Assembly: GCA_030374765.1 (NCBI GenBank)
Contig: JARGXX010000040.1
Location: forward strand, 124,001-188,000
Source of the DNA: Agarophyton chilense
Taxonomy: Eukaryota > Rhodophyta > Florideophyceae > Gracilariales > Gracilariaceae
DNA length: 64,000 nt
Direction of reading: 5' to 3'
A program made the position numbers and the translations under genes. The stretch's first letter is position 1. Every line of letters starts with the position of its first letter. The notes below the pieces were generated by a model. The model ran no database searches and had not been told where the DNA came from. It saw nothing but the letters and a program-made list of their open reading frames with translations. Positions 41,950 through 64,000 of this stretch are shown piece after piece.

Positions 41950-42379
41950 GTGGGTCAGCGTACGGGTCTCGACTGGTGGTAGCGTGGTAGACCGGGTCCT
42001 AAGGTTCGAATTCTTGATGGCGGCACTCCCAGGGTACTTGGTGCAATGGGCTAGCGTTTACTGCGTATTGCTACAAGTTGGAGCAAAAATAACGATGGCT
42101 TGAAGACTAATTAATACAACTAATATACCAAAGGGGGTTCTTTAGTATCCTAACGGTGCCCACCTTCATCTAAGGGAGAAGTGTCGCTCGAGCCAAGAGA
42201 ATAGTACTGGCGAGGCGCTGGGATCTCCCTGACACTGTAATGATAATGTATGACATTAATTAAAATAAATTAATAATCTGCCTGAGTCCAGCTGAGGTCG
42301 GCCAGTGGACGTGGCGTCTGTAAGATCCCTCAGGGCCCGGCAGCTTACAGGGCTCAACCGTTATCGTCGCTTCTTCACA
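41934..42379. repeat. 446-bp LTR-like repeat, copy B
   Basis: Partner of 7634-8078 and 35,224-35,669, TG…CA ends. See copy A. Confidence 0.65.
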
Positions 42380-42811
42380 TATCTCCCTCCTTAGAATTCG
42401 GCCATTACGGCGAAGTCAAGATGGCCTCATCATTGACGGAGAGGACGCGATCTCTTCGTCGCTCCCAGTACCATTGGGCGCGACGGGACGTCGCGTGGTC
42501 ATCGCATGCGGGGATGCGACGAAGCGTGAGCTGACAATTGGCGCCGAAGGAAAATTAATTTGCTTAAGGACTGAAACTCCCGCGCGCCGTAGACACTGGC
42601 CATAGGTACATCGCCGGCGTATTCCTCGTGGCGCGGTATCCCGGTGGTCCCTTGACTTATTCTCCCCTGACCGTCATTGGGGCCTTCCTTAGTCTTTGCT
42701 CTTCCTTTGGCGACCCTCTGCGCTTCGTTGACCGTGGTTTACGCCTTTCAGTACGTTCAGGTCAATTCCATTCGTCTTTTCATCGCGGTAATTTTTCATT
42801 AGTCGCGCGCG

Positions 42812-43303
42812 ATGCTGAACTCCCGTTATAAGCCCGTCGGATACGCTATTCTCCCTCCCGAAAATGTCGCTTCCGTCGGCTCTCCTATCCATTTCCCGGC
42901 TGACCAGCCTGTGGGGAGCGGCGTTATGGCTTCGAAAAACCAAACGGGGAGCTCCTCGGGATACCAAGTGGCTTACGAACGTCACGGGGACTACTACGAC
43001 CATACAGTCGGACGGAATCCGCGGGTAGTGCGTCATATCATTCTTCCGTACTCAGTAGAAGAATCCTAAAGGTTCGGTCATATGTATCTCGGTGCCCGAA
43101 GGTTTTCCAAAATACCCGAATTTTGGAAGGGCAGCATGAATGCGCCCAGCGTCTCGTAATATAACCGATGCTTTCATTGTCCTGTGGATCTACGTTCGGC
43201 GACGCTATATCGCACCCTAATCCAAGCGGACATGCCGTGCGTCCGCTACGAGGAGGAAGCCGAATACCAGTTCAGGGTGACCAAACTCCTTTCGGACCTA
43301 TAA
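42812..43303 (+). pseudogene. Broken partner of the 8511-9002 ORF
   Basis: Same length (164 codons) and ATG. A TAA at about 43,067 (CAA in copy A) and further stops interrupt it. The first 85 codons stay open (YKPVGYAILPPENVASVG). Most differences keep the frame length, which hints that it was coding before the duplication decayed. Confidence 0.45.
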
Positions 43304-43440
43304 ACGGAGTTCATCCCGCCTCATATGCGATTTACTCCGGCGGGTCACAACCTTTTGGCGCTTATATGCTTCCGGCCGCTGTATGACCGCCTGTTTTTGG
43401 ATGTCTAATAGGGTCTATCGGAACGAGATAAACGAGCCCG

Positions 43441-44022
43441 TGTCGTACAATCTCCTCTGGGGTCTGCTACTGTCTTGTCTCAGGAGCGTGCTGACGCTCA
43501 ACGTCAGAAGGTAGACATGATAAAGATTGATGGTAACAGGGCACCGTGAAAACCCGCAGGGGCAAACGGCGGGGCAACTAGCCTACACCGTGTAGGTGAA
43601 CGATGGTAGGCGTCTACGCGCGGTAAAACCTATATGGTACTTGAGAAACAATGAACCAAAAGGTATAGTCGTGACCCAAGTAGTGCCTGTGTTTATCAGA
43701 CTAGGGTGGAGGAGGTGCAGTTCCTTATATGCAGTGTACTGCACCCTCCAGATCACCCGGAAGGTGCCAGCAAGGCACGGTCTTTGACCTAGTGTCAGAG
43801 ACCTGGCCAGCACTGGCTACAGTGCCAGGTGGCCACTCCACTACTGAATTACTCACAATCACTCAACCAGAAGGTACATTTCAACACTACACGTGGCTGA
43901 GAACACCTAGATGGTAACTCGTCCGGAGCTGCGTGGCCGATGATCCCTCGCATTCATTACCTACAAGGTCAGTGTAGTATATCGACAACCTCAAAGGTCA
44001 AACCTTCTGCCACTATACGACA
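43441..44022 (-). repeat. gypsy 3-prime LTR
   Basis: 582 bp, TG…CA. The minus-strand purine tract AGGAAGGGGGTC abuts it at 44,023-44,034 as the likely PPT. It contains six ACC-N5-GGT dyads (for example 43,587-43,597 and 43,628-43,638). Confidence 0.95.
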
Positions 44023-44769
44023 GACCCCCTTCCTACCCGTGAGACACGCCCCGTGTCTCCTTCCATCAAACCATAAAGGTATAGCGAGCGACAGCGGCCC
44101 GGGCATCGGAGTGGTATCCGCCAGCGGTTGCTCACGGTGCGCGACGCGCGATCCCTTGTGGTTCAAAACTCGGTGCCAGTGTCGGTTGGGGAGTGCGAGT
44201 GACGACGGCGGCGGACGAATTGAGCGACAACCATCCAGGTAGGGACTGTGGTGAGGACGATGCAGTGTCAATAGAGCGCTCGCGGACACCTTTTCGGCAG
44301 TTGGACCCTGCGTGCTTGCAATTCTGCTTCTGCATAGCCCACCGTTTAACCAAGTTGGTATCGCACCTTTCTCGGTTGCTCAAACTTAATATTCCTCCTA
44401 GGTACCTGCGCGTGCCGTTCCGCCTGGGTGTTACCACGGCTCGACAACCCTTCAGGTATTGCTGCCCTTAATTGGCGGCATCGCGACCGTAACCGTGCTG
44501 TGCAGCTTTCCTTGAAGGTTTACTGGCTTCTCGACCTTTAAGGTTTCTTCTACCTTTTAATGATTGATTCTTGGCGCCTGTTGGGCCTGAGCCTGCGTCG
44601 ATACAACCATTGAGGTATTGACCTGGGTCCGTGGCGGAAGCTTCCGGTTGTGAGACCTAATTGGTGTTGAGCGGCCCCGTTGGTAATCGCGCGACGTTTC
44701 TCGGGTTTTTCATTCCGGTTTACCTTTAAGTCTATCACAGGATCGCGACGCCTCCACGCGTGGGTGTGA

Positions 44770-45366
44770 ACCCATTCGGTGCCACGTCGACGCACCTCGC
44801 GCCGCATCGTGGATTCGCTACCGAAACCTCGAAGGGGTGGGTCGTCTCCATACGCAGCACCAGCGCTCGAGAGACGTGAGGAGCCGGTTACCATTGAGGT
44901 TGAAGAATTAGACGATTCCGAGGGGATTGATACCCCTGAAGTTATGCCTTTAAGGTCGGATTGGTCCCGCTCCACGATACCTCAAAGATCTGAAACCTCT
45001 CGCGCCCGTACGATGGCAACTGTTGTACCTGAACGGTCGATGTCGGTACTACCGGAAAGGTTGGATACGTTTGCCGTCTCTTCGGAACGTACTGAGGAGG
45101 CCTCACCTCAGAAGGGTAAATACCCCCTGGAGGATACTCGCCGATTTGGTTACAAGAACATCGTTCAGGGGACCGATTATACCGTGAAGGATTTGGACTC
45201 GTATCTCGAGCAGAGCGAGAATTACCATTGGGATTTCCATCAGGGTTGGGAGGTTTTTGATCGTGCGACTTGGAAGATTGTGCCTCGCCACGCCCAATAC
45301 TATCCCGGGGAGCCTCCTATTCATGGAGCTCCCGCGAGCCCCGAACCATATCAAGGTACTGTGTAG
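44770..45366 (+). CDS. Antisense ORF 1 of the gypsy element
   Basis: The frame opens after a TGA at 44,767, with GTG at 44,779 and first ATG about 44,944, and stops at TAG 45,364. It is Arg-rich at the start (RRRTSRRIVDSLPKPRRG), then acidic (VTIEVEELDDSEGIDTPE), then an aromatic part (DSYLEQSENYHWDFHQGWEV). It lies on the strand opposite to pol, between integrase and the 3-prime LTR. Antisense ORFs at this place are known in some plant gypsy lineages; no match is recognised. It may be broken and join with ORF 2. Confidence 0.45.
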   Translation, partial: THSVPRRRTSRRIVDSLPKPRRGGSSPYAAPALERREEPVTIEVEELDDSEGIDTPEVMPLRSDWSRSTIPQRSETSRARTMATVVPERSMSVLPERLDTFAVSSERTEEASPQKGKYPLEDTRRFGYKNIVQGTDYTVKDLDSYLEQSENYHWDFHQGWEVFDRATWKIVPRHAQYYPGEPPIHGAPASPEPYQGTV

Positions 45367-45440
45367 ACACCTGTTGGTCGATATGCTGGTCCCTTCCCGT
45401 CCGAGCCGTTACCTCAAGGTCGTAAGTCGCCCCTACGGGT

Positions 45441-45965
45441 ATGACTCCTACTCAACCGAGCTCCTCGCGGGTTGCTGGTCCAGTTCGATCTCTTTTGGAG
45501 GGTATTACTAATCATCCGCCTCACCCTATGATGAATTCTCCGGCCGTGGTTGGTTTATTAGCTCGAATTCGCCGGGCTTGCGTCACCAACTTTCAAAGGG
45601 CTGGGCCTACCTCTGTGGTTGCTGCATTAACACTCCTTGAAGGTTTGCCGCCGTACCATACGAAATACATGAAGACGCTGAACCAACTTGGTGAGTTAAG
45701 GAATCAGTTTCCGTTGGACATGTACCAATTGGCCACCCGTCAGGTTTCCATTCTGGCCAGCGTCTCTGCTGCTGCGCCATCTGATCCTTTGACAGATCCC
45801 TTTCTAGGTGCTAACTTAAACCCTGCGGTTTTGCAACCCGCTCTGGCGGGTCCTCTCGTTCAACCTATGTTGGTTTCAACTCCTCTCCCCAGTAGCGGGG
45901 CTACCGCTCCTTCGCTACCTCCTATGTCGATGGCTCCTAGCAATCCTGCCAGTTCTCCTTCGTGA
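45441..45965 (+). CDS. Antisense ORF 2 of the gypsy element
   Basis: ATG 45,441, TGA 45,963-45,965, 174 codons. The central part looks folded and helical (VVGLLARIRRACVTNFQRAG, VVAALTLLEGLPPYHTKYMK, LNQLGELRNQFPLDMYQLAT). The C-terminal 60 residues are Pro/Ser/Ala-rich. It is in a different frame from ORF 1. It ends five bases before the end of the integrase frame, so the two genes are convergent and abut. Role unknown; a DNA-binding partner for the dyad array is a possibility only. Confidence 0.5.
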   Translation: MTPTQPSSSRVAGPVRSLLEGITNHPPHPMMNSPAVVGLLARIRRACVTNFQRAGPTSVVAALTLLEGLPPYHTKYMKTLNQLGELRNQFPLDMYQLATRQVSILASVSAAAPSDPLTDPFLGANLNPAVLQPALAGPLVQPMLVSTPLPSSGATAPSLPPMSMAPSNPASSPS

Positions 45966-45969
45966 GTAC

Positions 45970-48953
45970 TCAATAAAACGGGTCCTCCGAGGGTCGATCG
46001 CGTAGAGCTACAGCTCTGGGCTTTCGGGCTGAGTTGCCTACCTCAATGCGATGTTGAACCGTTTCAGGTGCTACTGTAATACGGTCAATTGAAATCGTAT
46101 TCGGTATTACATCTTTTTCAACCGTAAAGGTGTGGTCTGATGCGTTCAATACCGTATAAGGTCCCACTGACTTCGGTAGAAGCTTCGAATTGATATCTCT
46201 ATCAATAGCTTCATCGTCCGCTCCATCACCCGGTCGTGGTCTTTTACCAGAAGGTAGGTTGTCTATATAGATATATTGTCCCGAAGATTCAGAGGCCTCT
46301 TTGGTTACCCTACGGTCGTAGTCGGCCTTACACCGCTTCTGGGCTGCAGTGAGGCGGCTCTCTGCATTTTTGAGAGCCCTCCTCAACCTCACAAGGGTAT
46401 TTCGCTTGACCTGGGCAGGGGTCAGTGCGCCAGCTGCAGTGCTGGTGGTATGATCTCCCTGCACTACAATACCTGGGTGGTGTCGCGAAAGAACCAAATC
46501 AAAGGGAGTGGTCTGCGTTGACCGGTGTACCTGAAGATTATATGAGTAGGTGAGCGGTTGCACCGGCTCATCCCAACCAGTTTGGTGCTCTTCCGTATAG
46601 TGTCGTAGCCTTGATACCAATGTGTGGTTAAAGCGCTCGACCGGTCCGTTCGTCTGCGGGTGGTAGGCAGTAGTGAAATAGTGCTTGATACCCAAGTACC
46701 CAAGAGGTTACAGACTGCTTCGAAGAACTTCAATGCCAGGTTTGAACCATTATCGGTAAGTAAGTACAGTGGTGCACCATACGGGTAGACCCAATTGTTG
46801 AGGAACGCGATCGCCGGCGTTGTTAAGTTCGTATCCTTTAAAGTAATCGCTCCCGTGAGCTTCGAGATCCTGTCGGTGATCACTAGAATGTGCTGATACC
46901 CATTCTTGGTCTTGGGAAGTGGTCCTAGAAGGCCTTTCGCAACAAACTCCAGCCGACCCGCTGCTGGAAACAGCTTGAGGTATTTTCGATGCTTTCGAAT
47001 ACCACCGCGGTTACGAACATAGGATTCGCATTGACCTACAAAGGTATAGATATCATGGGCCATATGAGGCCAGTAGAACTGTTGCCTCAAGGTGTAATAT
47101 ATCCTGGTGGCACCGGGGTGTCCCAATAGTCGCGGGTAGTGCGCGAGATACAAGACTCTCGGGCGAAGCGCTTTCGGAACCACCTTTTGAAGGTCACCAT
47201 CCAAGGTTGACCTTCTCACGATGTACCCATTGTGGTCCGCATCGAATTGTGATCCTTTGAAACCAATTTGGTCATCCATGGTTCTGCAGTACGCATCCTG
47301 GACCTGTTCTCGTAGGCATTCCTCTCGGGTTACGGGCATGAAGTTCGTTTCCTCTAGGGTCGGTATCTGCGTTGCCATGTCGTTGTTCCGCAAAGCACCA
47401 TTTTCAGGTAAGTACCAACATTCTTCTAGGTGTTCGCCGGTACCATTTTGGTTTGATGATACCCAAAAGCAAGGGATGTCATCGTCCGCAGGTTCTGTCT
47501 CTAACTCTGAGGAGTTTAAGCGTGACATAGCATCAGCTATGTTGTGCTTGATACCTGGACGGTATTGTCCGTAGTATTCAAACTCCGTCAGTCTCAACCT
47601 CCAACGGGCAAGTCTACCAGACGCCTCTGCGAGTCCGAGGATCCACTTTAAGGCGTTGTGGTCCGTGTGCAACGTAAAGCGCTCACCATACAGGTATGGA
47701 CGGAGCATCAACATGCTCCACACTACTGCGAGACATTCCTTCTCGGTTACGGTGTAGTTCTGCTCCGCCTCATTAATAGCGTGGCTGCAGTCCTCTATAG
47801 GTAGTTTGTCTTCGTTGTGCTGCTCCTGCATGAGACAACATCCAATTTGAGCATGGGATGCATCCGTATCCAGCGTGTACGGTAGACCTGTTTTCGGTAA
47901 CGACAAGATTGGCGGGGACAAAAGCGCTCGTTTCAATTCCTCAAAGGTATCCATTTCGTCGTTCGATAGATTCTGAAACCGTTCAGGTTCACCTTTCTGG
48001 AGCTTCTTGTTGAGGGGAGCCGCTATTTTCGCGAATCCCTTCACGAAGCGACGATAGACGTTGCATAAACCTATTATGGATCGTACGTCTGTCTGGTATC
48101 GTGGCACTTTGACCTTCTGTACGGCTCTAGTGTTACTCGGCGCAACCTCTAGGGTACCAGGGCTTATGATGTGGCCCAGGTAATCAACCGTTCTGGTAAA
48201 GAAGACGCATTTGCGTAGCTTCAGCGTCACCCCCGCCTTAGCTAGGAGGATTAGTACGGTGCGCACGTGAGAAAAATGCTCTTCTACCGATTTGGAGTAG
48301 ATGATTACATCATCGATGTATACCAAGGCGGTTGTCCACTTACCCTTCGAAAGGATGATGTCCAGCGCCCTTTGAAAGGTGGCTGGAGCATTGCGCAACC
48401 CAAATGGCATCCACGTGAAGCGAAACAAACCTGAATGCCACTTGAAGGTCGTTTTTTCTCGATCTGCCTCACCTACAGGTACCTGCCAATAACCACAATT
48501 GGCATCCAACATGGTAAATATCTGCGCATCTCCCATGGAGTCGATGCACTCATCCATTCTAGGTATTGGGTACGAATCCCTGACAATCACGCTATTGACC
48601 CTTCTGTAGTCCACACAGAACCTCATACGGTTATACCCTTTCTTCTGAACCAGAACCATGGGACTAGCCCAATCTGCGTTGGCTAGTTCAATTACACCTT
48701 CTTGGAGCATTCGCTCCATTTCTTTGAGTTCTACTTCTCTCGCATTCTGACCTGCACGGTATGGTTGCTGATAAATAGGCTTCGAGTCAGGGAGGAGCTC
48801 GATGCGATGCTGTGTGGCCTTTATTTGGCCCAGATGGCCTGACCACGTCGTTTTGAACTCCTCCAGAAGGTCGATAATACGGCCCCGCAGTTCGCCGTTT
48901 TCTTCACCGATCTGGACTGCATCTTCCTATTGCTTCTCAGGGTCAGGTTCATC
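45970..48953 (-). pseudogene. gypsy pol: RT, RNase H and integrase
   Basis: RT: RMRFCVDYRRVNSVIVRDSY, FTWMPFGLRNAPATFQRAL and the active site LVYIDDVIIYS, all intact. RNase H: YTLDTDASHAQIG, VTEKECLAVVW, LHTDHNALKWI, all catalytic acids present. Integrase: His-His-Cys kept but the second Cys of the zinc site is Tyr (CESY). The first catalytic Asp is Gly (FVAKGLLGPLP; GGC at 46,932-46,934), the second is present (LLTDNGSN), and Glu is present (HPQTNGPVERFNH). An 8-base tandem duplication (TGGGTACT, about 46,690-46,710) shifts the frame before the Glu. The C-terminal part contains SVGPYTVLNASDHTFTVEKD. The RT N-terminal part extends to about 48,925, where a TAG and a TAA lie in frame. Confidence 0.9.
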
Positions 48954-49904
48954 TTACTTGTCTACCGATTCCTTATCGGTTAGCTCTGATTTCAAGTTGG
49001 TGTTTATCGATACCTTTGCGGTTGTGGACGCATTTGCGCACCCCCCTTCCTTATCGGAGGTGACCTTGCCGAGATCAGTGTGAGCTACGGTGAATTCCCC
49101 TTGTGGTGCCGGTAGTGCGATGCCTACATTGGTATTTTTCGGCAACTTCACGTCGTCACTGCTGAAGTTGCTGAGACACGCCTTAAAGGGTTGATTTGGG
49201 ATGTTGTAGACAATCCCGTTGGCCATCAAGGTGAGATATCGATGTGCTAATCCCGGATGGTTTTCTAGTATGACCAGCCCGGGGGTCGCATACGACACCG
49301 GTACCAATACTTGGTGCATTAGCGGGATAACAACCTGTTTGGTAAGGCGCACTTTGTTGGAGACCGTTTCGGTGGATATCGTTTTCTTCGGTTTAAAGAA
49401 CCATCCCCGTTTGGTTTACGTATCACCTACAATAGCAATTCGTCCCCCGTGACGTAGGATGACGGTACGGGAACCAGGAAGGATTGCTTTGACATGTCTG
49501 TCAATGAAGTTCGTACCTACTAGGCAGTCTGTTGGTAAATGGTAGACAACAAAGAATTGCAGTCTTACCTTAAGGTGTCCGAGCTGCACCAAAGTGGTAA
49601 AAACACCTCAAAGGTTTAATGGGCACTCATTTGCATCCACCAGCGGGTTTTTGTCTGGAGGTCGGCTCAAGTTCCGCAGTACCGCCTCAGGTAGGACGCG
49701 GGAGTTCAGGACGTTTGGGCCGGCCCCGGTATTCAACACGCAGGTGACCGGAACCGCAAGGCGATCAGAGAAACACATTGAAGCACGTACTTTATAGTTG
49801 TTGTACTTCTTAAGACAAACCGGAACTGGTTGTGACGTGTTGTCTTCCACCTTCAAGGTTCTGGGTATCGATTGGCCTTCCAATTGAAGATTTCGTTCGG
49901 CCAT
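48954..49904 (-). pseudogene. gypsy aspartic protease and linker to RT
   Basis: Active site reads VLNTGAGPNVL, with Asn (AAT at 49,731-49,733) in place of the catalytic Asp. The second half is GTNFIDRHVKAILPGSRTVI, then a stretch typical of the region before gypsy RT (NQPFKACLSNFSSDDVKLPK). Stops interrupt it near 49,608, 49,420 and 48,954. Confidence 0.8.
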
Positions 49905-50549
49905 TACGCCAACCGTTCGGTGTTTTCCTCCTGCACGGGAGGGGTTGAGTCCAAGTTGGGTGTTCCCTCGATGGTATTGACCTGTACTGGTGTACGGGGT
50001 TGGAACCTATTTGGTGCTTGCGTTGAAGACTTATAGAGGCGTTGGTGATTCTGCATGCGAGCCTGAGTCAACTGGTCACTCATCGCTGGGGTGAATTAGC
50101 GCAATTGTTTGCCAAATGGTCTGTCGCAATACAGAACTAGCAAACGAGGCCTCTAGTTTGGGGGTCTCGCGTTACCATTGAGTGGGGCTTCGAAACCTGG
50201 TTGGTAGGAGCAGTGGCGTAGGATGTGGGTGGCGAGTTATGGGAGCTTGTTCCCTGCATCCTCTGCGAGCTCATTGCACTTGGCGGCGATTGTACCGAGT
50301 TTGGTGTACGCGTTGACGACCAATTCCCTACCGTCGAAAGTTTCGAGAACCGCCCCTGGGTCGCTACGAAGTGGATAGCGGTCCCTATAGGTACTTCGAT
50401 GTGCCAGCTACCCTCTGAGGTTGTGGTCTCTTCAAGTTCCAAGAAGGACCTTTTCGATTTTTCCTTCGAGGTTTGAGGCATGGCTGGTCTCTTTCCCAGC
50501 CGAAGGGTATCTCCAAGGCCCTGGGAGTATCGAACCAGCCCATTGTATT
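49905..50549 (-). pseudogene. gypsy Gag C-terminal part / Gag-protease linker
   Basis: A minus-strand frame of 114 codons (50,481-50,137) is Ser/Thr-rich, with SKRSFLELEETTTSEGSWHI. No zinc knuckle is recognised. Frames are interrupted. The region bridges capsid and protease. Confidence 0.4.
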
Positions 50550-51480
50550 CTACCTTTCGGTTAATGGCCAGGTAGTTGCGTACTGGGAACGGATCGCTTT
50601 GTCGACATTGTCAGCGAATAGCGACTTTAACCTAGAGGTAGTGAACACATTACCACAGCGGGTTGCCAGATTCCACAGCGCGAACGAAAACTTCGATTCG
50701 GTTTTCCCAGACCTTTGATGGTAGGAGAGGACTTCCGAATAAGCCTCTTGGATAACCTCATCGGTGGCGTATGTTTCCAAAAAGAAATTGACCACCTCTG
50801 GGTATGACTCCAACATCTCTGTGCTATCCTCATCCATCGCTAAGGTATTGCCGCGGAGCCTACCCTGCAGCAAGTAGTATGCTTGTCATTTCAGGTAAAA
50901 CTGAAATAGCCACATAGCAGCGCCCTCGGAAAAACCATTTTGGTCATATGCAAGCTTGAACTTCTGTAAAAACTCAATCACCGCAATAGGATCCGTACCT
51001 GTGAAGGTTGTGTCACCCATTTGGAAGCTGAGCTTCTTGTGGTGCTTAGTAATCTTCTGAGCAACCTCTTGGGTGTATTCAGACGACTTGTTGATCAACC
51101 GATAGTTCCTGTAGTCAACCGCTTTGGTGAACATATCGTTCAAGGGTTGGTGCACCTCCAGGTCTATTTCGGTGCCCGACTCAGAGTCGGACGACTCATT
51201 GTATCGCTTCTTACCTTTTTGGTTCTTTTTCGACTACTTCTTCGTCGACCTGTTCGGTTTTTTCTTCTTCTTACCTTGACGGTCATCATCCGACGATGAA
51301 CTCGTACCGGAACTGGAGTCCGACGAGTCCGGGTCTGAATCATCCCCTCGATTCTTTCCCGTCTTCGTCCTCCGCTTCTTACCCTTTCGGTTTCTTCGTC
51401 GCTCATCCAACGAGTCAGACGAATCTTCCTTGGGATTGTAGAGCAACGCCCAGTCAGGGGATACTTGAAGATGCAACTCA
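50550..51480 (-). pseudogene. gypsy Gag capsid region
   Basis: One frame, with TAG (about 51,232) and TGA (about 50,885) as the only stops. The N-terminal part is a Lys/Arg and Ser/Asp alternating segment (KNRGDDSDPDSSDSSSGTSS), followed by a helical capsid-like part: LNDMFTKAVDYRNYRLINKS, GTDPIAVIEFLQKFKLAYDQ, AAMWLFQFYLK, then EVVNFFLETYATDEVIQEAY and RSGKTESKFSFALWNLATRC. The hydrophobic spacing and FLxxFKxAxxxxGxSEGAA pattern fit Ty3/gypsy Gag. Confidence 0.7.
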
Positions 51481-52199
51481 TAGAATGAGGATTGAACCCT
51501 CCGAGGGTTATGATTATGATCCCCTCTATGGTGTGCTGAGGTGGCACTGTTTTCTGGTTATATTTCGCCTATAAGGGAAAATTCGGATGGCCCATGGTTG
51601 GATTGGCCCCGTGATACACGTGGCTTAATTCTGGCACCGAATTTCGGATATTTGTTAGAACGTTGGATTTTTGGGCCCTGGCAGTGGGATCTCCACGTGT
51701 ATGGCCCTGAGCAGGTGTGCACTACTGTAGAGTTTAGTTAGTGGGCCCTACTTAGGGAGGCGAGATCTGACAGTCCGAGCTCAGAGTAAATGACAACCAA
51801 GGTTGGTCTTCGATACCTTTAGAGGTTCTTCGTCGCCATCGTTTCGGCCTTACAACCCGGAACGGGCTCTGGTTAGCAACGCCTGCGTAGGGACACGACT
51901 CCACTTGGAGAGTGCCCACGTTTGGGTTCCGTGCAACCACCCCCTTGGGACCGCTCAGACGACCTGCGTGCACGATACCCCGTGGGGGTTCTGCTTACTT
52001 GTTGCGTGCTTTTTGTGTTTCCTTTCGAGGACAGGTTTTCGCCCCTGTATTGGGTTTCTTTTGTTGTTTCGCCCCTTTTCTGGTTCTCGGGTCCGGTGCC
52101 TGTTAGTGCCCGACCCTCGCCCCGTTTTTCCTCTTCGCCGGATTTTCCCCCATTCTTTGGGATACCCATACCCATTCCCAATCCAACGGTTTTTACCCC
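51481..52199. other. gypsy Gag linker region, frames disrupted
   Basis: The minus strand is Gly/Glu/Arg-rich and low in complexity (about 52,181-51,873). A plus-strand ORF at 51,541-51,741 is Trp/Pro-rich (DTRGLILAPNFGYLLERWIF) and may be another antisense fragment. No domain is recognised. Confidence 0.35.
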
Positions 52200-52736
52200 T
52201 TACCTCCGTCGGTACTGCCGGAATCTCCCGTGGGAGTTACACCCCACACTACGGGTGGAACGGAGGGCTCTGTCTCTGAGTCTGCCTCCCCCAGGGAACA
52301 ATGCTTCGAACACCTTGAGAGCACTTCCCGTCGCCGGGTTTTGCTCCACAGGGATCACCTCCGTGGGTATCTTTAGAACGAAACCAGTAATTGGTGGCAG
52401 ATAAATGTCTTGAGGATCTACATTCCCCGGGACCTCTTGACTCTGCTTCGGACCTTGTAGGTACCCACTTTCAGTCGGTAAGTGTTTTGAATGGGTGTAA
52501 GGACCCATTTAGAACCCTTGTTGTATGCGCTTTGCAATATTCACTTGTGTAGGTCGGGATTCTGCGAATCCCTCGGAAACCCAATGGTCTTGCACCGCGC
52601 GGTAAACATGCTCCCTAGCATCTGTAAAGAGATACTGTTTCACCATTTCAGGTATCCTATCCGATAGCTCTTGAGCTGCTCGGTCAACCACAATACGGGT
52701 AAATGCATCGGCGTCCATTGAGGTCGGAACCATCCG
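52200..52736 (-). pseudogene. gypsy Gag N-terminal region
   Basis: Two minus-strand frames meet at 52,508: DADAFTRIVVDRAAQELSDR, IPEMVKQYLF, and DPQDIYLPPITGFVLKIPTE, ENPATGSALKVFEALFPG-like residues. They precede the capsid part in the expected order, so I read them as the matrix-like N-terminus. A frame change or stop lies at 52,509. Confidence 0.45.
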
Positions 52737-53156
52737 GGTATCCGACTTCTCCTTTAAGGTTAATGCATCCTCGACCGCGAGGGTGACGAGCGCTTTCGCT
52801 TGCTCTTCGAGCTAAGGCCATAGCTCCTCGGCTGCAACCTCAATTGGTAATTCCCTTTGAGGTTCCGTTGCCATAGGCGGCGGACCATGTACCTTTACGG
52901 TTTTGTCCCGAGTGTGCCGGAGCAGCTCCTCGGGGTTCTCTAGAATCTGGTGAGCCGATGGGACTTCTTTAATAGCTTAATGGCTTGGCGGGGCGCTCGC
53001 ACCACGCGTATTCCGTTTAGGTTGTTCCATTTTTGACCAATAGTGGTATCCTGTATTGCTTTGCTGGATTTCCTGAAACCAAATAGGTGTACAAGCGTCC
53101 AATCCTTCTCGGAATCTCGTTTGAACCATGAAGATACGACGAAACCTAAAAAAACT
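52737..53156. other. gypsy 5-prime leader
   Basis: The region lies between the primer-binding site and Gag. It contains several ACC-N5-GGT dyads (52,734, 52,891, 53,077). The minus-strand frames are short, so the Gag start may be lost here. Confidence 0.4.
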
Positions 53157-53174
53157 TTCTAAATCGGGAGACCA
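53157..53174 (-). promoter_or_regulatory. Primer-binding site of the gypsy element
   Basis: Minus-strand TGGTCTCCCGATTTAGAA begins three bases inside the 5-prime LTR. It starts with TGG, the complement of a tRNA CCA end, and would pair with a tRNA ending CGGGAGACCA. I cannot name the tRNA. Confidence 0.65.
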
Positions 53175-53177
53175 AAA

Positions 53178-53759
53178 TGTCGTACAATCACCTCTGGGGT
53201 CTGCTACTGTCTTGTCTCAGGAGCGTGCTGACGCTCAACGTCAGAAGGTAGACATGATAAAGATTGATGGTAACAGGGCACCGTGAAAACCCGCAGGGGC
53301 AAACGGCGGGGCAACTAGCCTACACCGTTTAGGTGAACGATGGTAGGCGTCTACGCGCGGTAAAACCTATATGGTACTTGAGAAACAATGAACCAAAAGG
53401 TATACTCGTGACCCAAGTAGTGCCTGTGTTTATCAGACTAGGGTGGAGGAGGTGCAGTTCCTTATATGCAGTGGACTGCACCCTCCAGATCACCCGGAAG
53501 ATGCCAGCAAGGCACGGTCTTTGACCTAGTGTCAGAGACCTGGCCAGCACTGGCTACAGTGCCAGATGGCCACTCCACTACTGAATTACTCACAATCACT
53601 CAACCAGAAGGTACATGTCAACACTACACGTGGCTGACAACACCTAGATGATAACTCGCCCGGAGCTGCGTGGCTGATGATCCCTCGCATCCATCACCGT
53701 CAAGGTCAGTGTAGTATATCGACAATCTCAAAGGTCAAACCTTCTGCCACTATACGACA
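53178..53759 (-). repeat. gypsy 5-prime LTR
   Basis: 582 bp, partner of 43,441-44,022. It differs at about 15-16 positions, mostly transitions. Three of the six dyads in the other LTR are altered or differ in their spacer here. Confidence 0.95.
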
Positions 53760-53798
53760 GCCCGATGGTCGTTTGCGTCAATCCCTGGGGTTCTTCTT

Positions 53799-53986
53799 TG
53801 GTTGGCATCAGGTGAAGCTTCACTATCACACAAATACAACATGTAAGCGTGAGAAATACATTTCAAAAACGTTTGCCACGGCATAATGTCAACGATTCAT
53901 GGTACAGCCACTAAGAATACAAATACAAAAACATTGGGCATTTGCAACAAGAGAAGATGAATCGCATCAACAAGAACATTCTAATA
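53799..53986 (-). repeat. copia-1 3-prime LTR, copy 2
   Basis: Partner of 9175-9361 at about 89% identity. It ends ATTCTAATA at 53,986, followed by the PPT complement CTCTTCCGCCTTC. Confidence 0.6.
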
Positions 53987-53987
53987 C

Positions 53988-55935
53988 TCTTCCGCCTTCA
54001 ACCAAAATGTTTCTCGGATCTTTTAGTTTCGGAAATATCCTGAGAGTTGAAGTTGAGTTTGTCAGTATATAGCGTAAGCTGGAGAGCGTCTGTCTTCTTG
54101 GTGAGTAGATCTGCAAGGTTGGAGTTGCCAGGAACCCAAGATATTTTGTCCACTGCACCAGTCTAAAATTCATATTGGGTGCAGCTAACTTCTCCGCGAA
54201 TAGACTTGGCGATAGAGTTTTTCTACGTCAAGAGTGATGTGATTGAATCTTTGGATTCAACTGCAATTCTCAGTTTGACATCCATATCTAACAGCTCCGG
54301 GTATGCCTTAGAGATAGTCCTGCCTTCATCAATGCCTTCAGAAGCGGCAAAAATCTCGGCTGCTGGAACGCTTTTAACTGGGCGCTCTGCCTTGTGAAAG
54401 AGCCACGAGATGGTATAATCAATAGAACTGCTTTTCATTTCACCTACAAGTAGACCAGTTAGAACTCCAAGTTGACCACAAGCATCAGTACGTGATGCAT
54501 CAACAAATACTAAGACGCTGATCTCATGCTGTTTGTTATCTGTCGGCCTAGGGTGTGCGATTGTTTTTCCAAGCTTTTTAAGCTTTGCAAAAAATATTAA
54601 CTGGTTGAACAAAATGGCAGACCTTAAGATCGGGTGCTTTTTGCTGTAGATAGCTCGCATAGAATGAGCAAAAAGGCGATGCAGCAGTTCCGATCCATCC
54701 AAGGGAACTGTTGGTTGAGGCAAATAATGACTTCTCAATCTGGTTGAGTGGTTCGTCAGAATGCTTGCGACGTTGTCTGGAGAAGGGATACTCAGTAACA
54801 GCTTCCATTTTGTCGTCGGCGTCAGTCTCAATGGTAAGGTCACCATTTTGAATAGTGTTAATCTCAAAGAAACGTAGCTTTCCTGGTCCATGCATCACAT
54901 CACCAAACTTGAATCGTTTGTCAAATTCCATCATACCACGTTTCACACCGTTGGCATCACCTGCAACGTTCAAGTCATCTACAATTTTTGCGACAATTAG
55001 TCCCAACCTTCCGTTTTCTTTTTGAAAGAAGAGCTGGGGCACGTGAGCTGACTGAGTGAGTCCAATTTCAAACATAATATTGTCGGACTGGTTCTACCAT
55101 TTATCATTGGCATTTGAAAGCCCGTATGCAGCTGTCAACAACAACCATAGATTAGTAGATTTCATTCGGCTTTCTTTGGGAGGGCGCACATAGACATTTC
55201 TCTGCGCCTCACCGGTCTGCAAAAATGCAGAGTTTACATCAGCCCTGCAAATGTTCCATCGGAATAAAGATGCTATGGACTCGAGAATCCAAAGACCTGT
55301 AGGTGGACACGTTATACAGTCTTTGCTTAGGACGATCCTTAAGTCATCTTCGCTACCATGAGGTGCTATTCGTGCTTTTAGCTTCAAAGAGCCATCGTCA
55401 TTAGTCTTGATTTTGTAAAGTGTGTGACTATTGATTATATTTGAGTTCGGAGGAACTTCGTCGTGTGTGACAGGGCGCACAGTCTTGATGAAGGTTTCCT
55501 CTTCTAACTTGTATGAATTGACTAGAGGGTATTGGTGGAACCCTTGTGCGTGGTGCTTGAGGAATGGCTTATTCCCGAAATGCTTTACCATTGACGACTG
55601 AACAGCTTTCTCAGTGCTAGTGACTTGTAAATCAGGCAGTGTTGAACTAGAGCTAGAGCTAGCTGTAAGTGCATTGTTGTAGTTCCAAACTTCCTTTATC
55701 ATATCTCGGAGTTCTTTGTCGCCGTCCTCATAATAGGTGTTTAGACGACCATCTTCGTCTGCTGAATGCACAGTTCCTGGATAAAAATGCGCAGCCATGG
55801 GCCAGAGCACTGAAAAAATGTGTCCAACTGTCGGTTTATCATACGGACAGTCCGTCGATAGTACATCATCAGCAGCTGCATTCTCATGATACGATGTAGC
55901 CTGAGAGTCAAAACATCTACTTGGTACTATAGTCC
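53988..55935 (-). pseudogene. copia-1 reverse transcriptase and RNase H, copy 2
   Basis: RT: HTLYKIKTNDDGSLKLKARI, NICRADVNSAFLQTGEAQRN (first Asp), then a TAG at about 55,091 in DKW*NQSDN, then GLIVAKIVDDLNVAG with the Asp-Asp of the active site in an unusual Ile-Val-Asp-Asp context, and GDLTIETDADDK with PFSRQRRK. A one-base shift in a run of six T at about 54,590 precedes KLGKTIAHPRPTDNK. RNase H then shows VLVFVDASRTDACGQLG and SVPAAEIFAASEGIDEG; two TAG codons interrupt the end at CAG positions of copy 1 (54,223 and about 54,165). Confidence 0.8.
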
Positions 55936-57189
55936 GGACTTGCTTCGGCAGTCGTTACAGGCAACGTGCCTGCAGAACTACGCTGTTCAATAGAGAGTTC
56001 ATCTATCGAGCCCATTCCTTCCTGTACTAGTTGGGCGAAGCTCTCTTTAGAAAGTGCTGGCCAGGTATCTTCAAAGGCGGCAATAATTTCCCGACCCTTG
56101 CGTCCTGGAACGCTCACTGAGCGAGCAGCTCTGTTGAATAAGAGGATCGGTTTGGGATCCGTCCACTTTCCTCTCTTTTCATAGTCTTTCTTTTGGTTGA
56201 CTTCAACAAAGTCACCAACTGCGATTGGTGGTTCAGTCACAGAATTTGAGCGAAGAATTAGCGCTAGTTTGCGGCGTTTTTGTAGCTGGTCACGAGCAAT
56301 GCGAACATCGTCAGGTATAGCAGTTTTGTTAGGCTCGGCGGCAATAGGATTTGAGAAGCCTTTCGCTAGTTCAAATGCAGACAAGGTGTTGTTACCGTAA
56401 AGATCGTTAGAAATACACAGAGGCTTGTATGCAGCTACTTTGGGGTCAAACTCGGAACCAGCATCCTCTTTTAGGTTAATAAAGATGCTGCGAAAGATGT
56501 TATGCTTAGACACTATCGCATTTTTCGAGTGCCTGCCAGGAGGCACTCGATGAATCGGTATTCCAAGCTTCTTGGCGTAGCGCTTGAACGATCCGACTTG
56601 GAAGGCTTTGTCTGCACGAATAGAGTCAGGGTACCAGAACTGGGATAACCAGGAGGCTTCAAAGGCAAAAATAGCCTCTGCAAGACTTGTTGAAGTTACT
56701 ACAAGAGCACTTGAACATCTTGTAATTAGATCCATCAAGTGCATTTGCAGCATCTCATTAAAAAAAATAAGATCGACACATAAAACCTCGTTGAAGTTCT
56801 TAGAAAGGGAACTAATGGAGACCTTGAGACTGGGCTGCGGCACCGCTGCGGAGCGACAAGCAGTGCAGCGATTGATCATTTCCGTGAGCTACGACTTTAC
56901 GGTCTCAATCCAGATTCCATTCCTCTCTAGCAAGAGCTTGTAGTCACTATAGCTTGCATGGCCACATACGTGTTTGTAGGCCTTGTCTATAATCTTCTTT
57001 ACATCACACCATGGTGTGGTGTCAAGAGTTACTGCAGAGGCTCGAAAGAGTAGAGCCGTCATTGCAGTGAGATGTAAAGATTCCCAATGCCGAGTAGCTA
57101 AGGAAGCCATTATTGATTATGGAAAGGTGGTCTCGGTGTCCGTGAGAGACGAACATAAGTGCATTTCTGCCTATGTGCTCGGTATTAGC
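55917..57189 (-). pseudogene. copia-1 integrase, copy 2
   Basis: Same as copy 1, with a few substitutions. The zinc domain is split by the same TAG, and Val is at the catalytic Glu position (56,514-56,516). A three-base length change in an A run near 56,760 adds one residue. Confidence 0.75.
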
Positions 57190-58490
57190 TTATCGAGTCA
57201 CGTTTCTTCTAATGACCCACTGGGGTGATCCGTCTAGAACAAGGTGCTTGATCCGAACTGAATTACCGTGGTCAGATGTCGCAGTGAGGGCAATTGATCC
57301 TAGTATGTGACGTGCTGAACTGGTGTGCCGGCCAGTTCCGTACTGCCAGTGCGTGTGTCCGTTGAGTGCCAGGGGTATGGCATCTAGCTTCGGGTTAGCT
57401 GGCAATCCGATGTGATCGGCTAGTAAGTTCAGTTCTATTGATCCAATTGCGGAGAACGATGCTTCGTCGCCAAGCAGTGGTCCGAGTTCGACCAGAGATG
57501 TATCGGTACTGGCGGATGAGCTAGTCAGAGTTGCCATATTAAATGAGACAGTCTTCCTCTTAGACTTGTCTCTGCTGTGCTGATCATGGTAAGGTGTGTT
57601 TCCAGTGTAATTAGAGTGACGACCGTTTTCTTTTGACCCAGATGGGGCATCAAATGACTTCATATGCGATGGGAATGAGCCGTCGGGATTGTGGTTGCGC
57701 CTCCAGTGTCCATATTTTCTGCATTCATCACAGGGATACTTTAAAATGGAAGATTGTCCCTTGTAACGGCTTCTGTGACTGCGAAGATGTTCTCGAGTAT
57801 GGCTTGTTCTAGCAGAGCTGGCAACAAGCGATCCAATTTCGCTGTTTGGGGAGGTCTTATCGCAGTGCTTAATGACCGAGGCTACTGATTGATCCGTGAT
57901 AGAGTTGATAAACTCTTCATTCGACGACTGCAAAATGAGGTTCTCATCAGATGATTCGCCTGCTGCCATAACGGAAACCCGTTTGGAGTCATCAATGGCG
58001 GAATTAGATAGTAGCATTAAAGCAGTAATGCACTCGGGTAGCCTGGTAGTAGAAGATATGGAGTTGAACTTTGGAACTTGTGTCGAGAATCGAGACTCGA
58101 AGTTCTTCATGGTCTCGGTGCTGCAACGGCGAGTATTCCATAGCATATTGAGCGCGGGAAGCTTCACTTACTATAGAGAGGGCATCCTTCTGATATATAT
58201 TGCCCACGAAGAAGTCTACTTCCCAATCTTCAATCAGCTCAGTCTGTGACATTCCAGTGCGAAGATCTTTTGCACGGCCATAAAATTGAGATTTGATACA
58301 AACAGCCTGCATTGCTGTCGGCATCTTGCTGCTATTAGAGTCTGGGAGAGTTTTGTGAAACGTCTGCCAGAGCTTGACTGCATCTTGATATTCTTCCTGG
58401 TCACCCCTCCCATCAGTCCATGGAGGGGATCTCACATCCCAGGAGAACTTGGTCCTAGACGAAAAGTTGGCTTAGAATGCTGGGCCCATC
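57190..58490 (-). pseudogene. copia-1 gag and protease, copy 2
   Basis: It has the same early TAA, gag frameshift, His-for-Cys-type knuckle and altered protease signature as copy 1. Only about six base differences are seen. Confidence 0.7.
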
Positions 58491-58628
58491 ACTAAAAAAA
58501 ATTAGACTGCGCCTTCGTGCTTGGTCGAGCTAGTCGACTGAGAACGACAAATTCAAGTGCTTTCTGTCAGTGTAAAACAAATTCCACATTGAGAGAGAGG
58601 TCTCTACCTCTTCCCGCTGGTTTACCAA

Positions 58629-58812
58629 CTACAAACATGGTGATTTGTAAGGACACACAATTACAACATATAAGCGTGCGCAATACATTACAAAAACTGT
58701 TGCCACGAAATAATATCAACGAGTCACGGTACAGCCATGAAGAATACAAATACGAAAAGATGGGGCGGTTGCATCAAGAGAAGGTCAGTTTCATCAACCT
58801 ACCATTCTAATA
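58629..58812 (-). repeat. copia-1 5-prime LTR, copy 2
   Basis: Identical to 12,990-13,173 as far as I can see. Confidence 0.6.
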
Positions 58813-60412
58813 GAAGCATTCACGTTAGTCGGTTATCACAGTTTTTATGAATATAATCCGTTCATTGTAACAATTCCTATCATTGTCGATGACAGTACAC
58901 ATTCATCTTTAGTGCTCAGTCTGCTTTTTCCCTTAATAAGATTTCTACACCAATCGTGCATTTGACTAACTTTACTTCTTCAATCAACACTTTTCTTTGA
59001 AAAACAAAGTATTGAGAGTGCTACCAAATAAAAGAAGAAGCTTATTTATCTTCGTAATCATCTTCGAGAACTCATACAAGTGCGTACGTTAAGTTTTTTT
59101 CAAACTCTTTGTAAGATTTTAAGTTGTGGTCGAGATCTGTTTGGCTACGTTTCCCCTTTCCAAAACAGTTTTAACACTACAGTCAAAGAACGTGGTATTT
59201 CTTTGTCATCGCAGATATTTCGAAATATTTACAGTGCTTCCTTCCAGTTATCAGTAGTTGTTTCGTTATGAATATTTAAAGGAGCCTGCCAATTTGGGCA
59301 AACTGTATATCAGATGAGACGTTCAGTCTAACCAGAGCTAGGGCTGCCCGCACATGGGAAGAGAGGCGGCCTGAGCCGGAAGCAGCCACTAGTATTGCGT
59401 GCTTTTTCTCAGCCGTTCCACTGGCTTTGGCTCAGCCGTGCCATCGTCTCATAACTCGCTTCGGCACGAGAACTCTCAGTAAAAATAATAGAGAAAGCTG
59501 GCCGCTGCTTCCAACTGCGAACAGATCCAGCACTGTTTGTGCAGCCAATGAGAAAGGAGCCACTGACGTCTTTTCATTGGCTGCCCGCCGTAGTAGGAAC
59601 GGTCAGGCGGTCGCCGGCGCCTCCACTTAATGAGCCCGAGAATCGCGACGCTCCCGTACTTAATCCCGGACTCTGTTCACATCCTCGTATGGTGCGACTC
59701 ACACATCTTCAGTCGTAGCTTCAGTCTCAGCTTCACTCACAGCTTCAGCCGCAGCTTCAACAGCACCTCGAGCAAATAGCTTCAGCGGGTTTTTGCAGTG
59801 TTCCCAAGCGCGACTCAAACAACTATCTCAGTCGCAGCTTTAACAGCAGCTTCAGCTCCAGTGTCAGATTCTTCAGCCAAGGAAATGTTTGAGCTTTTGC
59901 CTTCGTATCGTCTTTCGGACGAAATACCCATGAAAGCACCCAGAGACCAATAGCCCATTTTACAAGCCGAGGGGATGCTTCGGCTATGAGATGCTCGCTT
60001 GAGCTTTACCATCTTGTGAATCTCAGAACTGCCCTCGGTTGTAATCGGATATGTACATTTCTACGGAGCGCTACAACTATCTACTGCACCAAACTCACCT
60101 TCAGACCTCCATGTCGTCCCCATCGGCACCTTGCGACACATTACCATCTTCCGCATCTCCTGAATCGGTCTCTGTACTGCTCACAACTCAACTTGATCTT
60201 CCGATGACTTCTTGCACCTCCCGCCGCACTGCGGTACATCTTGCGTCGGCAACCGGCCCGTCGAAACTCAGTGGTCGATACTGTCTTCTCTCCCGGCTTC
60301 TGTGACTCACTGCAACATTTCCGATAGGACTTTCCCCAAAGGCGAATGGTGACCGAGTACCCGGTGTCATTGAACCCAGATCGTTGCCTTGACTTCTCCG
60401 CACGCTGTGCTG
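58813..60412. other. Region between copia-1 and RBR, copy 2
   Basis: Identical to 13,174-14,773 except for about one base (59,728). The CCAAT/CRE dyad is repeated at 59,541-59,584. Confidence 0.4.
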
Positions 60413-63400
60413 TCAACTCAGAGCCATATTCCTCGTGGACGGTGACATGGGAGAAACAAAAATCGATCCGATTTGTTTTGGGGATCTTTGTGTCTTCATG
60501 ATGCCCATAGCACTCTGCAATAATTTACGATCAATATCCCCAAACATTTTCTTTTGTTCCCTTCCCTGACGGCGGCTTGCCCGTCTGGAAAGGTCATTCA
60601 AACCTTCTGAAGCTTGGTCGTCTGCCTTACTCGCTCGCAATGCTTCCGCTAATCTCTTTGCATCTCGGCCTCCATTATCTTCGCCCGTCAGTACGATGAA
60701 GTTGCTCATGTAAGGCACAAACACTTCGTTATAGAAGCGAATGATATCGCCTGTCTCTTCAGCCGTCGATTCCGGTCGTGGCCCACTATCATCGGCAGCA
60801 TCTTCCGCCAACAAATGCCCGAAATCTCCGAGAAAAATGTTACGGGACACTGGTGGAGAATTGCTCAGAAATGTGGAATCACTTGTGTGCTCCAATTGAT
60901 TGTAGTGCCACACGATATGGCGGAACTGCAGTTGGATATGTTGGATCTTGGCCACGCCATCTACCACAAACAGGATGATCAAGTCAATATGTCTGTTGAC
61001 TGTCAAATTCCATCTGCACCACAGAGCATACTGCACGCTTTTCCACACTGCCGAACGAAGGTTGGTGGGGCCAAGTCTTCCTAACAAATCCCCTATTCTA
61101 GTGCTTGCCAGGGCAAACAATTTTTCAAAAAAGAAGTCTAGAACTCTTGCTCTGGCTTCAACATCTCCGTACAGTCGTTCCGGACGCCCCATTTCTTTCA
61201 ACCTTAGTGTGATCATCGCCTTTGTTTCTATACGTTGTCCTTCTTCGATCTTCTGCTTTTGCGGCGTAATCGGGGATTGTTCTACACTTTCTGGCTGTTC
61301 ATTATGTTCTGGTGACTGATCGGACATCTGTGTGTTCACCAACACTCGCTCCGACAAATTTCTCTTTTGGTTAGAACGGTTTCTGCTCATCTTGCGTACA
61401 AAGGAAATCTCGACTACATGCTTGAAGAACTCGTACCAGAGGCGAGTCATGTCTCCATGCCATCCATTCTAGAATACGAGCGTCACAGCTATTCGAATGA
61501 TTAACCAAGCGATGTGGCATCTGTGGTACAAGGGTATAGAATGTTTACAGCGCCTCGTAAGCTCAAAGGGTGATACATTGAACGCACGATAGGCAACTGT
61601 GAAAACGTGAAGATCCCTTCTACCCTAGGCATAGACAGCGGTATCCCACGCGAAAGTGAGAAAGCTTTTGTGTAGGATGTAGTTGTGAAGTACATTGCTA
61701 TTAAACTTTTCAGGCTGTTCGCGTAACCGACGACGTTCCTTCTCGAGAATACCTTCGATGGTTGAGAAACAGATAGCCAGAGCTTCACGTTTGTACCGGG
61801 AATTATTCAGATCCGTAATCACGTCACAAGGCATCAGAGTACCGTCTGCCAACATCAATGATAGCGTATAATGGGCGACCACCCCCAGTGACCCTTCTCA
61901 GATCGTGCGATATAGCCACACTTTCTGGCGGGCATGTGAGACACGTTTCGCTTCGAGTTTCTGGTCGTTTCTGCTTCAGCTCACTGATCCATGTTGCAGA
62001 TCGATTGTTGTCAGTGCCGGGAGTGAGAGCAATGTTTGATGATGGAGGTATAGGAGGCACGATAGTCGTACAGTGCGGCGTAACGACAGCTACTGTGGCC
62101 AGTGCCTCCAATGCATCAGGGTGAGTGGACAGATAGCGTGAGAAGCGATCCTGGAATGACAGTGACGAATGCATGGCAGATTGAGTGCGCGTGCGACGCG
62201 GCGTGGGCGGGCGGGCTTATGATGGGGTGACGGCAAAGTCGGAAGCCTTCCGAAGATGTCGGGGGCGTGGGGTAGGTGCTGCAGACTGGTTTTCGCCGTC
62301 CATACGACGTTTGCGATTGAGAGGTGTGGAAGGCTGTGATGAGGCTTTAGGCGTTGATGGTGCTGCGTGGGTAGTGGGCTGGGCCGGAGATCGTACGGGC
62401 ACAGACGGGTCCTTGTTGCGTTTGAACGGTGCAGCGACGGATGGTTGTACTGGGCGGAGGCTTTGCCACGAAGTTGATGTTCCAGCGCATGAAGACTGAC
62501 GTGGTAAGGGGAGCGAGAGTGGTAAAGCGGCAACGGCAGTAAGCTGTGGCGCATGAAGAAAGATACGTTCGTCGCTTACAATACGGTCATCGACAGCGGT
62601 GAGTTGTTGTGCATACAATTCATCTATTGACTTGCCATGGGCATCGATATCATCTTCAGTAGCCTGAAAGAACGATAACCGAGTGAGGATAGCGGGGGGT
62701 AGGAGAGTTACAACTGTGCGTTGGTATTGGTGCAACTCGCTCGACACGGCGCATGTGATACGAAATACGGCGTTCTCAGGATTGTATGCTGCAATGAGAC
62801 CGGACTGCGTGAGGCAGGCGAGCAGCAAATGGTAGGTTTAAAAATGGTGGTACCAGGACCCGGACGGAGATGAGAGCGAGGCCTTTGCAATGATGAACAA
62901 GAGCCATGCGAGGGTCGTGAAACAGAGGGGTGATTGTGAAGCAAACGGCGACCAATGAGAAAGCGTAGCTTTCTCCAAACGTTTGCTGCAACCATGAAGG
63001 CGGTGTGCGATGCACGACCGTATGGTGTTGGGAATGGGGGCCGCATGTTGCGATTGAAAAGGTCCTCGGGGGAGCGTGAGTTGAGTATGAACTCCGGAAC
63101 GTGACGGACTTGGGCGTTGGCGGCGGAGAGTAACTGTGTGAGGGGAAGCTGGGTATCTGATCGGCGCGGTAGGCGACGGAGTGAGGTAAAGAACACAGGC
63201 GGAGGTGTATAGATTCGGGGGCCGGGGCTCGGCCGAGTTGTGGATGGTGTGCGCCAAATTAGCGATACGGATGGGAAGGGCGAGGCTTTGAACGAGGAGG
63301 TCGATACAATCCGCTGGGGGGGACTGCGGTTGCTGTGGTTGCTTGAGCTGTTGGTGGTTGTGTTGCGAGTGAGCCTGTATGTGAGAGGGGGCGGGAGAGG

Positions 63401-63959: not shown

Positions 63960-64000
63960 ACAATTCTGTTGCCGCCGCAGACTTCCGACATGCTGACAGA

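Follow-up and report, generated by a model that had tools for sequence, protein, structure and literature searches.

Element-wide ACC-N5-GGT dyads in Ty3/gypsy retrotransposons of the red alga Agarophyton chilense: candidate sites for a paired DNA-binding protein

Why would a retrotransposon carry one short palindrome along its whole length, reading frames included? The question arises from a 64,000-nucleotide stretch of Agarophyton chilense (assembly GCA_030374765.1, contig JARGXX010000040.1, positions 124,001 to 188,000), here called the window, in which a Ty3/gypsy retrotransposon occupies positions 43441-53759 on the minus strand. An earlier note, based on reading the letters, had claimed about 47 exact ACC-N5-GGT sites between the long terminal repeats (LTRs) of this element and six in the left LTR. 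Counting revealed 50 and six, respectively, which together with four in the right LTR amount to 60 sites (N5 denotes the five-base spacer; other spacers are named likewise). For spacers of 4 or 6 bases, where about 30 sites had been claimed, 39 were counted between the LTRs, out of 43 in the element (19 N4 and 24 N6), and N7 added 16. All of these spacings are raised, and the counts for N0-3 and N8-12 do not exceed expectation. The dyad field extends from 43587 to 53706, the last N5 site being 53696-53706, and its 119 N4-7 dyads correspond to about one dyad per 86 bp. By feature, the N5 sites are distributed as six in the left LTR, 14 in an antisense region, 14 in pol, seven in the N-terminal pol part, 14 in the gag parts and the stretch between them, one in the leader, four in the right LTR and none in a nested solo LTR.

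The excess over chance is borne out by simulation. Markov chains fitted to the element gave mean N5 counts of 3.4 (order 1, maximum 9, 300 simulations), 7.3 (order 2, maximum 14, 200 simulations), 7.1 (order 3, maximum 19, 300 simulations) and 7.0 (order 4, maximum 16, 300 simulations), with 3-7 sites expected per spacing overall. The N5 excess stops at the element borders; the remaining 53.7 kb of the window hold five N5 sites and 53760-64000 none, in agreement with the claim that equal stretches elsewhere are nearly free. Two outcomes that the earlier note had named as refuting, a near-random count and an equal density in unrelated DNA, were not observed. Among all 64 x 64 trinucleotide pairs at spacers 4-7, ACC..GGT is the most over-represented (z 19.9), and over the family sequences the exact dyad was found 373 times versus 39.7 expected (9.4 fold).

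Could base composition, codon usage or repetition alone produce such an excess? In favour of an artefact of this kind, the triplets themselves are common: the element has 246 ACC and 297 GGT, where the remainder of the window would predict 107 and 161. This surplus roughly equals the set of 119 dyads. Against an artefact, neither the Markov chains nor codon shuffles reproduce the excess, only spacers 4-7 are raised, and Tandem Repeats Finder detected no arrays in 42000-55500 at a score of 40. We regard this explanation as practically negligible.

The codon-preserving shuffle, a check proposed in the earlier note, left the N5 excess intact. The pol open reading frame (ORF) of the window holds 13 N5 sites versus 3.7 in synonymous shuffles, and two ORFs of a related gypsy family (family 2, described below) hold 18 versus 5.4 (gag) and 13 versus 3.4 (pol); in each case, 0 of 1000 shuffles reached the observed count. 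The N5 sites occupy all three reading frames. N4 is likewise raised in the family 2 ORFs (14 versus 3.0, 13 versus 3.6 and 9 versus 2.1), and is not raised in the window pol ORF (1 versus 0.9).

To place the dyad in the genome (79.8 Mb, 135 contigs), counts were compared with those of the reversed pattern, given in brackets: N3 18195 (22773), N4 24914 (25683), N5 36542 (21482) and N6 30565 (21783). N5 and N6 stand out, and N4 does so only relative to N3. The genome-wide rise of ACC-N6-GGT perhaps exceeds what families 1 and 2 account for.

Is the dyad a property of this copy or of its family (family 1)? An LTR-side query fetched 30 loci, nine of which (L001-L009) share one 40-bp insertion flank and were counted as one event; they lie on contigs C40, C42, C44, C45, C48 and C51, and the shared flank suggests that one large region was duplicated across several small contigs. 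All 21 further loci carry the dyad, at 10-21 N5 sites each per approximately 2.45 kb (313 in 52.1 kb), so that its absence from other family members, named in the earlier note as grounds for refutation, was not observed; the earlier observation is confirmed and reaches further than stated there. Two of these loci (L025 and L028; G000:C25, near 335.5 kb) are head-to-head copies, 99.3% identical over 2485 bp, leaving 20 of the 21 distinct; the outside 1.5-kb flanks of the 21 loci contain 29 N5 sites in 31.5 kb, 20 of which come from this pair. Past approximately 1 kb, 15 of the 21 copies align poorly to the window copy (identity 0.60-0.68), yet the dyads persist. Five additional loci were chosen because the genome search showed two neighbouring dyads at each. 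Three of them (L074, L077 and L079) are family copies with 74 N5 sites in 15 kb; the other two (L076 and L078), without blastn similarity to the family, have five in 10 kb.

Family 2 is represented by an element on contig C1 with a different LTR, a target duplication AGCCA and a pol 68% identical to that of family 1; blastn revealed no LTR similarity between the two families. Its insertion measures 19.5 kb, of which approximately 3 kb lie outside the sequence examined. The element itself contains 67 N5 and 45 N4 sites in 9.7 kb, and a DNA transposon nested in it has one N5 site in 4.9 kb. A scan of viral contigs using the family 2 pol gave no match.

Aligning gag and pol of the two families allowed retention to be measured. 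Seventeen of 38 window dyads are kept as units in family 2, versus 18 of 104 control pairs, which are ACC/GGT at other spacers (Fisher one-sided p 0.0012); in the reverse direction, the values are 17/40 and 18/96 (p 0.0045). Retention is strong in gag (10/15 versus 4/29). More than half of the sites are lineage-specific, and density is therefore maintained with turnover. Among family 1 pol copies, dyads were kept in 76.6% versus 69.0% of ordered comparisons, these comparisons not being independent.

On which molecule would the dyad act? Spacers are A/T-rich (0.66 versus 0.49 in family 1; 0.60 versus 0.45 in family 2) and strand-symmetric, without strand bias. G-U variants of the arms are at expectation, and arms other than ACC are much less enriched than ACC. 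The unbiased A/T-rich spacers and the missing G-U enrichment favour double-stranded DNA.

The reading that we prefer, and to which the sequence evidence lends about an even chance, is that the dyads are selected sites, spread over the whole element, at which a paired, sequence-specific protein binds double-stranded DNA. We infer that such a protein binds, that it is paired, that it acts on double-stranded DNA and that the element benefits: a dimer, or a single chain with two binding modules, would recognise one ACC per strand, the two being separated by 4-7 bp of A/T-rich spacer, with an optimum of 5 (4 and 5 in family 2). At the density given above it could cover the element from end to end. 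Sites would have been preserved and renewed throughout, coding regions included, by selection acting on the element, and the gain might be that own copies are shielded from silencing, or that the DNA is tethered or compacted. The element's own candidate readers would be the gag and pol products, common to both families; a host factor that the element recruits would be just as plausible. The earlier note had proposed a dimeric DNA-binding protein, and its proposal stands as far as constant half-sites, A/T-rich spacers, symmetry, frame independence, the demand for an exact sequence and retention are concerned; a rigid homodimer is strained by the 4-7 bp spacers and by the outer-pair avoidance described below.

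A number of observations weigh against a paired protein on DNA. The spacer length spans a 4 bp range, unlike rigid dimers, and some one-mismatch arms (AAC, TCC, GGG) are raised 2.1-2.8 fold. Retention is weak in pol (7/23 versus 14/75; with the stop-free copy L067, 9/18 versus 16/59, p 0.065), where identity of single half-sites equals that of control pairs (0.703 versus 0.696). In the first 1 kb of the 21 family 1 copies, half-sites are not conserved beyond spacers (0.947 versus 0.956), which may be explained by decay after insertion; the check proposed in the earlier note, whether half-sites are conserved more than spacers, is thus negative among these close copies, and retention of dyads as units is seen between families. 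Sense RNAs of the dyad ORFs fold more stably than shuffles. Apart from integrase parts, the Pfam scan of the ORFs revealed no DNA-binding domain. Finally, the base pair directly outside the dyad shuns complementarity (40/311 versus 80 expected, z -5.2), and an asymmetric model of these outer bases still misfits (G 11.9, p 0.008).

This avoidance, measured in 43441-53759 and L072/L073, is confined to the first position, as offsets 2-8 gave z values between -1.7 and +0.4. Pooled, inverted repeats of other trinucleotides within this DNA show no outer avoidance (494/1764 versus 443), although a few single triplets show it on small counts (GTG 2 versus 9.3, GTA 2 versus 8.7, CGG 3 versus 9.3); the rest of the window shows none (6/37 versus 6.7). 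The asymmetric model mentioned above, with a purine preferred outside ACC on one half and a pyrimidine on the other, beats the symmetric model (G 31.3, 3 degrees of freedom). Expectation-maximisation of an asymmetric motif yielded an N5 gain of 40.0, above all 20 simulations (null maximum 32.5); the N4 and N6 gains were not beyond simulations, and nothing was readable past strand composition. A simple homodimer would not predict the avoidance, which the asymmetric model accounts for in part.

Which protein could be the reader? The antisense ORFs, suggested in the earlier note as a source of the binder, were not supported in this role: they show no coding constraint, no Pfam match and no significant match in the family 2 sequence searched. 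The ratio of nonsynonymous to synonymous substitution (dN/dS) is 0.62-1.09 among four copies versus 0.53-1.18 for other frames of the same DNA, in a comparison without a pol positive control. Four antisense queries in tblastn against 18 kb of the family 2 element, with approximately 3 kb outside the search, gave a best E of 0.6. A match to the first antisense ORF was present at 7 of 22 loci, and for the antisense ORF of copy L011, 7994 scored candidates contained two relatives at E <=1, both from Agarophyton chilense at 66-67% identity. A structure model of the antisense protein (A3) has a mean predicted local distance difference test (pLDDT) score of 32, which carries no confidence, and the Gag model (A2) one of 41. 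A locus elsewhere (L075; G000:C100:1780501-1785500) matches parts of the antisense region of family 1 at 71-82% and adjoins a convergent ORF that resembles a tyrosine recombinase by eye, with no Pfam match; the antisense region may derive from another mobile element. The dyad as an integrase target was likewise rejected: target duplications are 5 bp, none of 18 left flanks carries ACC beyond those 5 bp, and the half-site is absent on both sides of the window and family 2 insertions.

The lack of a motif-specific DNA-binding protein among the scanned element ORFs, and the occurrence of the dyad in two families without detectable LTR similarity, would also suit sites of a host chromatin or silencing protein, or of an activator, that elements recruit or fail to shed. 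The dyad excess belongs to certain gypsy lineages only, however; elsewhere in the window and at two further loci the dyad is about as frequent as expected by chance, and repressor sites should be lost, yet the dyads are kept. We consider it quite unlikely that the sites belong to such a host factor.

A third gypsy family (family 3; L031-L060) served as a control, its results resting on one ORF, the gypsy pol ORF of L038. Compared with synonymous shuffles, N5 is at 2 versus 1.6 and N6 at 5 versus 1.1 (3 of 1000 shuffles reach the observed count). CC...GG in that order exceeds expectation at spacers 6-10 (z 4.3-6.9); the signal for GG...CC is weaker (z <=2.5 up to spacer 15, 4.1 at 16), CC...CC never exceeds 2.4 and GG...GG reaches 3.5 at spacer 16 only. 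Perfect stems are in excess at 4 bp (97 versus 70) and 5 bp (48 versus 19) and not at 6 bp (5 versus 4.8) or longer (0 versus 1.2). They are strictly Watson-Crick (110 versus 48, with one G-U at 90 versus 87 and one A-C at 99 versus 86), have variable sequence and short loops, and start with CC and end with GG. A tnp2 transposase, two host genes and a copia element show no excess of 4-5 bp stems. The fate of family 3 pairs (paired positions changed 3.3% versus 5.4%) was not relied on, the alignment being gappy (4856 columns for 3483-base loci).

Short perfect inverted repeats in excess in gypsy families, one of them with variable arms, and the lack of such an excess in tnp2, the host genes and copia could point to a mutational origin, in which reverse transcription writes such repeats, for example by templated quasi-palindrome correction. 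Templating predicts neither the dominance of the single arm ACC in families 1 and 2 nor the avoidance of the fourth pair, which makes this origin very unlikely in our view. A wider proposal, tentative and on balance doubtful, is that gypsy elements of this alga bear an element-wide palindrome code, each lineage having its own kind of inverted repeat that a cognate factor reads as self. In families 1 and 2 the arms would be fixed as ACC/GGT around a gap of 4-7 bp, and in family 3 they would be variable and 4-5 bp long; the code would be a dispersed self-mark made by point mutation, not by tandem repeats, and its reader would protect the element from silencing or package it.

At the RNA level, the dyads could instead be ACC...GGU mini-hairpins with a 4-7 nucleotide loop, acting as scattered signals for packaging or compaction that Gag would read. 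A loop is compatible with the flexible spacer, and dispersed packaging signals are known (PMC6281560). Mean folding energies against synonymous shuffles gave sense z values of -4.2 for family 2 gag, -2.9 for family 2 pol, -3.3 for the window pol and -5.4 for family 3, versus -0.8 for tnp2 and 0.1 for copia. Antisense folds, however, likewise exceed shuffles in stability (z -2.1, -4.9 and -1.7 for the three dyad ORFs), and folding does not decide between DNA and RNA because palindromic DNA too gives stronger folds on both strands. The G-U results for the arms and for the family 3 stems, the spacers without strand bias and the avoidance of a fourth outer pair, which would steady a hairpin, speak against RNA, and we judge the hairpin reading unlikely.

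How do the dyads compare with known systems? VANC anti-silencing proteins of Arabidopsis VANDAL elements, as described in PMC5735166 and PMC10398659, have a short target motif that has accumulated in the element and differs between related families. The precedent, already invoked in the earlier note, applies to the motif load across the own element. It does not extend to arrangement or place, since the VANC motifs are non-coding tandem repeats of a DNA transposon that has a known protein of its own; the present dyad is a dispersed palindrome in a retrotransposon, without tandem repeats, and of its 60 N5 sites 14 fall within parts of gag and 21 within parts of pol. The dyad load therefore resembles the VANC motif load in principle and departs from the VANC system in lacking tandem repeats and in not being confined to non-coding DNA.

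The papillomavirus E2 site, ACCG-N4-CGGT, likewise has ACC...GGT dimer half-sites, a preferred A/T-rich spacer and several copies per viral genome, and needs an exact spacer, with no complex at the other tested lengths, as reported in PMC10095481. E2 sites correspond to ACC-N6-GGT, with four sites; here N5 leads, N4-7 occur and about a hundred sites are present. The inner G/C beside the E2 half-sites was not found, inner bases next to ACC being mixed in the 60 N5 sites (A 17, C 6, G 10, T 27), and no E2-like protein was found for the dyads. With RNA-virus packaging signals (PMC6281560, PMC7612645), the dyads share being many, short, weak and dispersed genome-wide, genes included, and they differ in having fixed arms, a free loop, no G-U tolerance and strand symmetry.

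In its architecture the window element is like other Ty3/gypsy LTR retrotransposons, with LTRs, gag, the order of reverse transcriptase, RNase H and integrase between the LTRs and a short, 5-bp target duplication; it differs in the dispersed dyad, for which no report in Ty3/gypsy elements was found in the literature, coverage of subscription papers being limited. The target-site duplication GCCCG lies at 43436-43440 (left copy) and 53760-53764 (right copy). The LTRs, 582 bp each and identical at 566 of 582 positions, are at 43441-44022 (left, the 3' LTR of the minus-strand element, eight N4-7 dyads) and 53178-53759 (right, the 5' LTR, six N4-7 dyads), and a putative primer-binding site, located by eye on the minus strand, adjoins the latter at 53159-53177. 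The antisense region (44023-45965, plus strand), with ORFs at 44779-45366 and 45441-45965, is shorter than in L011. On the minus strand, pol with reverse transcriptase, RNase H and integrase spans 45970-48719 in two frames (46464-48719 and 45970-46695), its 14 N5 dyads being counted over 45966-48719, and the N-terminal pol part, assigned by similarity to family 2 pol, spans 48720-49931. Central and C-terminal parts of gag, assigned by similarity to family 2 gag, lie at 50092-51281 (nine N5 dyads in 49932-51281) and the N-terminal part at 52389-52958 (four in 52351-52958), also on the minus strand. Between them, gag is interrupted by a solo LTR of 914 bp (51437-52350) that belongs to a different element and is flanked, by eye, by the duplication GGGAT, so that the window copy is broken; this solo LTR has three N6 and two N7 sites and lacks only N5 and N4 (0 each). 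The same solo LTR, 96% alike, is present in the family 2 copy (L072:2212-3127, duplication CCACC). The family 2 integrase C-terminus weakly matches a chromodomain (E 0.063, 13.6 bits versus a Pfam cut-off of 25.1), and the Pfam scan gave no chromodomain match in the window integrase ORF; the element perhaps belongs to the chromovirus branch. Three of nine gag relatives carry the name Agarophyton chilense, and Rfam gave no matches on the window.

Elsewhere in the window, near-identical ORF sets occur approximately 45.6 kb apart at 10281-17830 and 55917-63469; one of these ORFs, scanned in the first copy, matches the retinoblastoma B domain. Tandem, nearly identical ORFs of 429 amino acids lie at 20306-21595 and 22824-24113, the first matching C2H2 zinc fingers.

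To our knowledge, transposon control has been little studied in red algae. Should the dyads prove to be binding sites, this lineage of retrotransposons would have rewritten its genome throughout, reading frames too, to hold about a hundred copies of a signal without tandem duplication. Self-marking, escape from silencing or DNA compaction by mobile elements would then become testable: one short oligonucleotide would be enough to fish out the reader protein, and the dyad would provide a short DNA tag through which the chromatin of these elements could be studied specifically.

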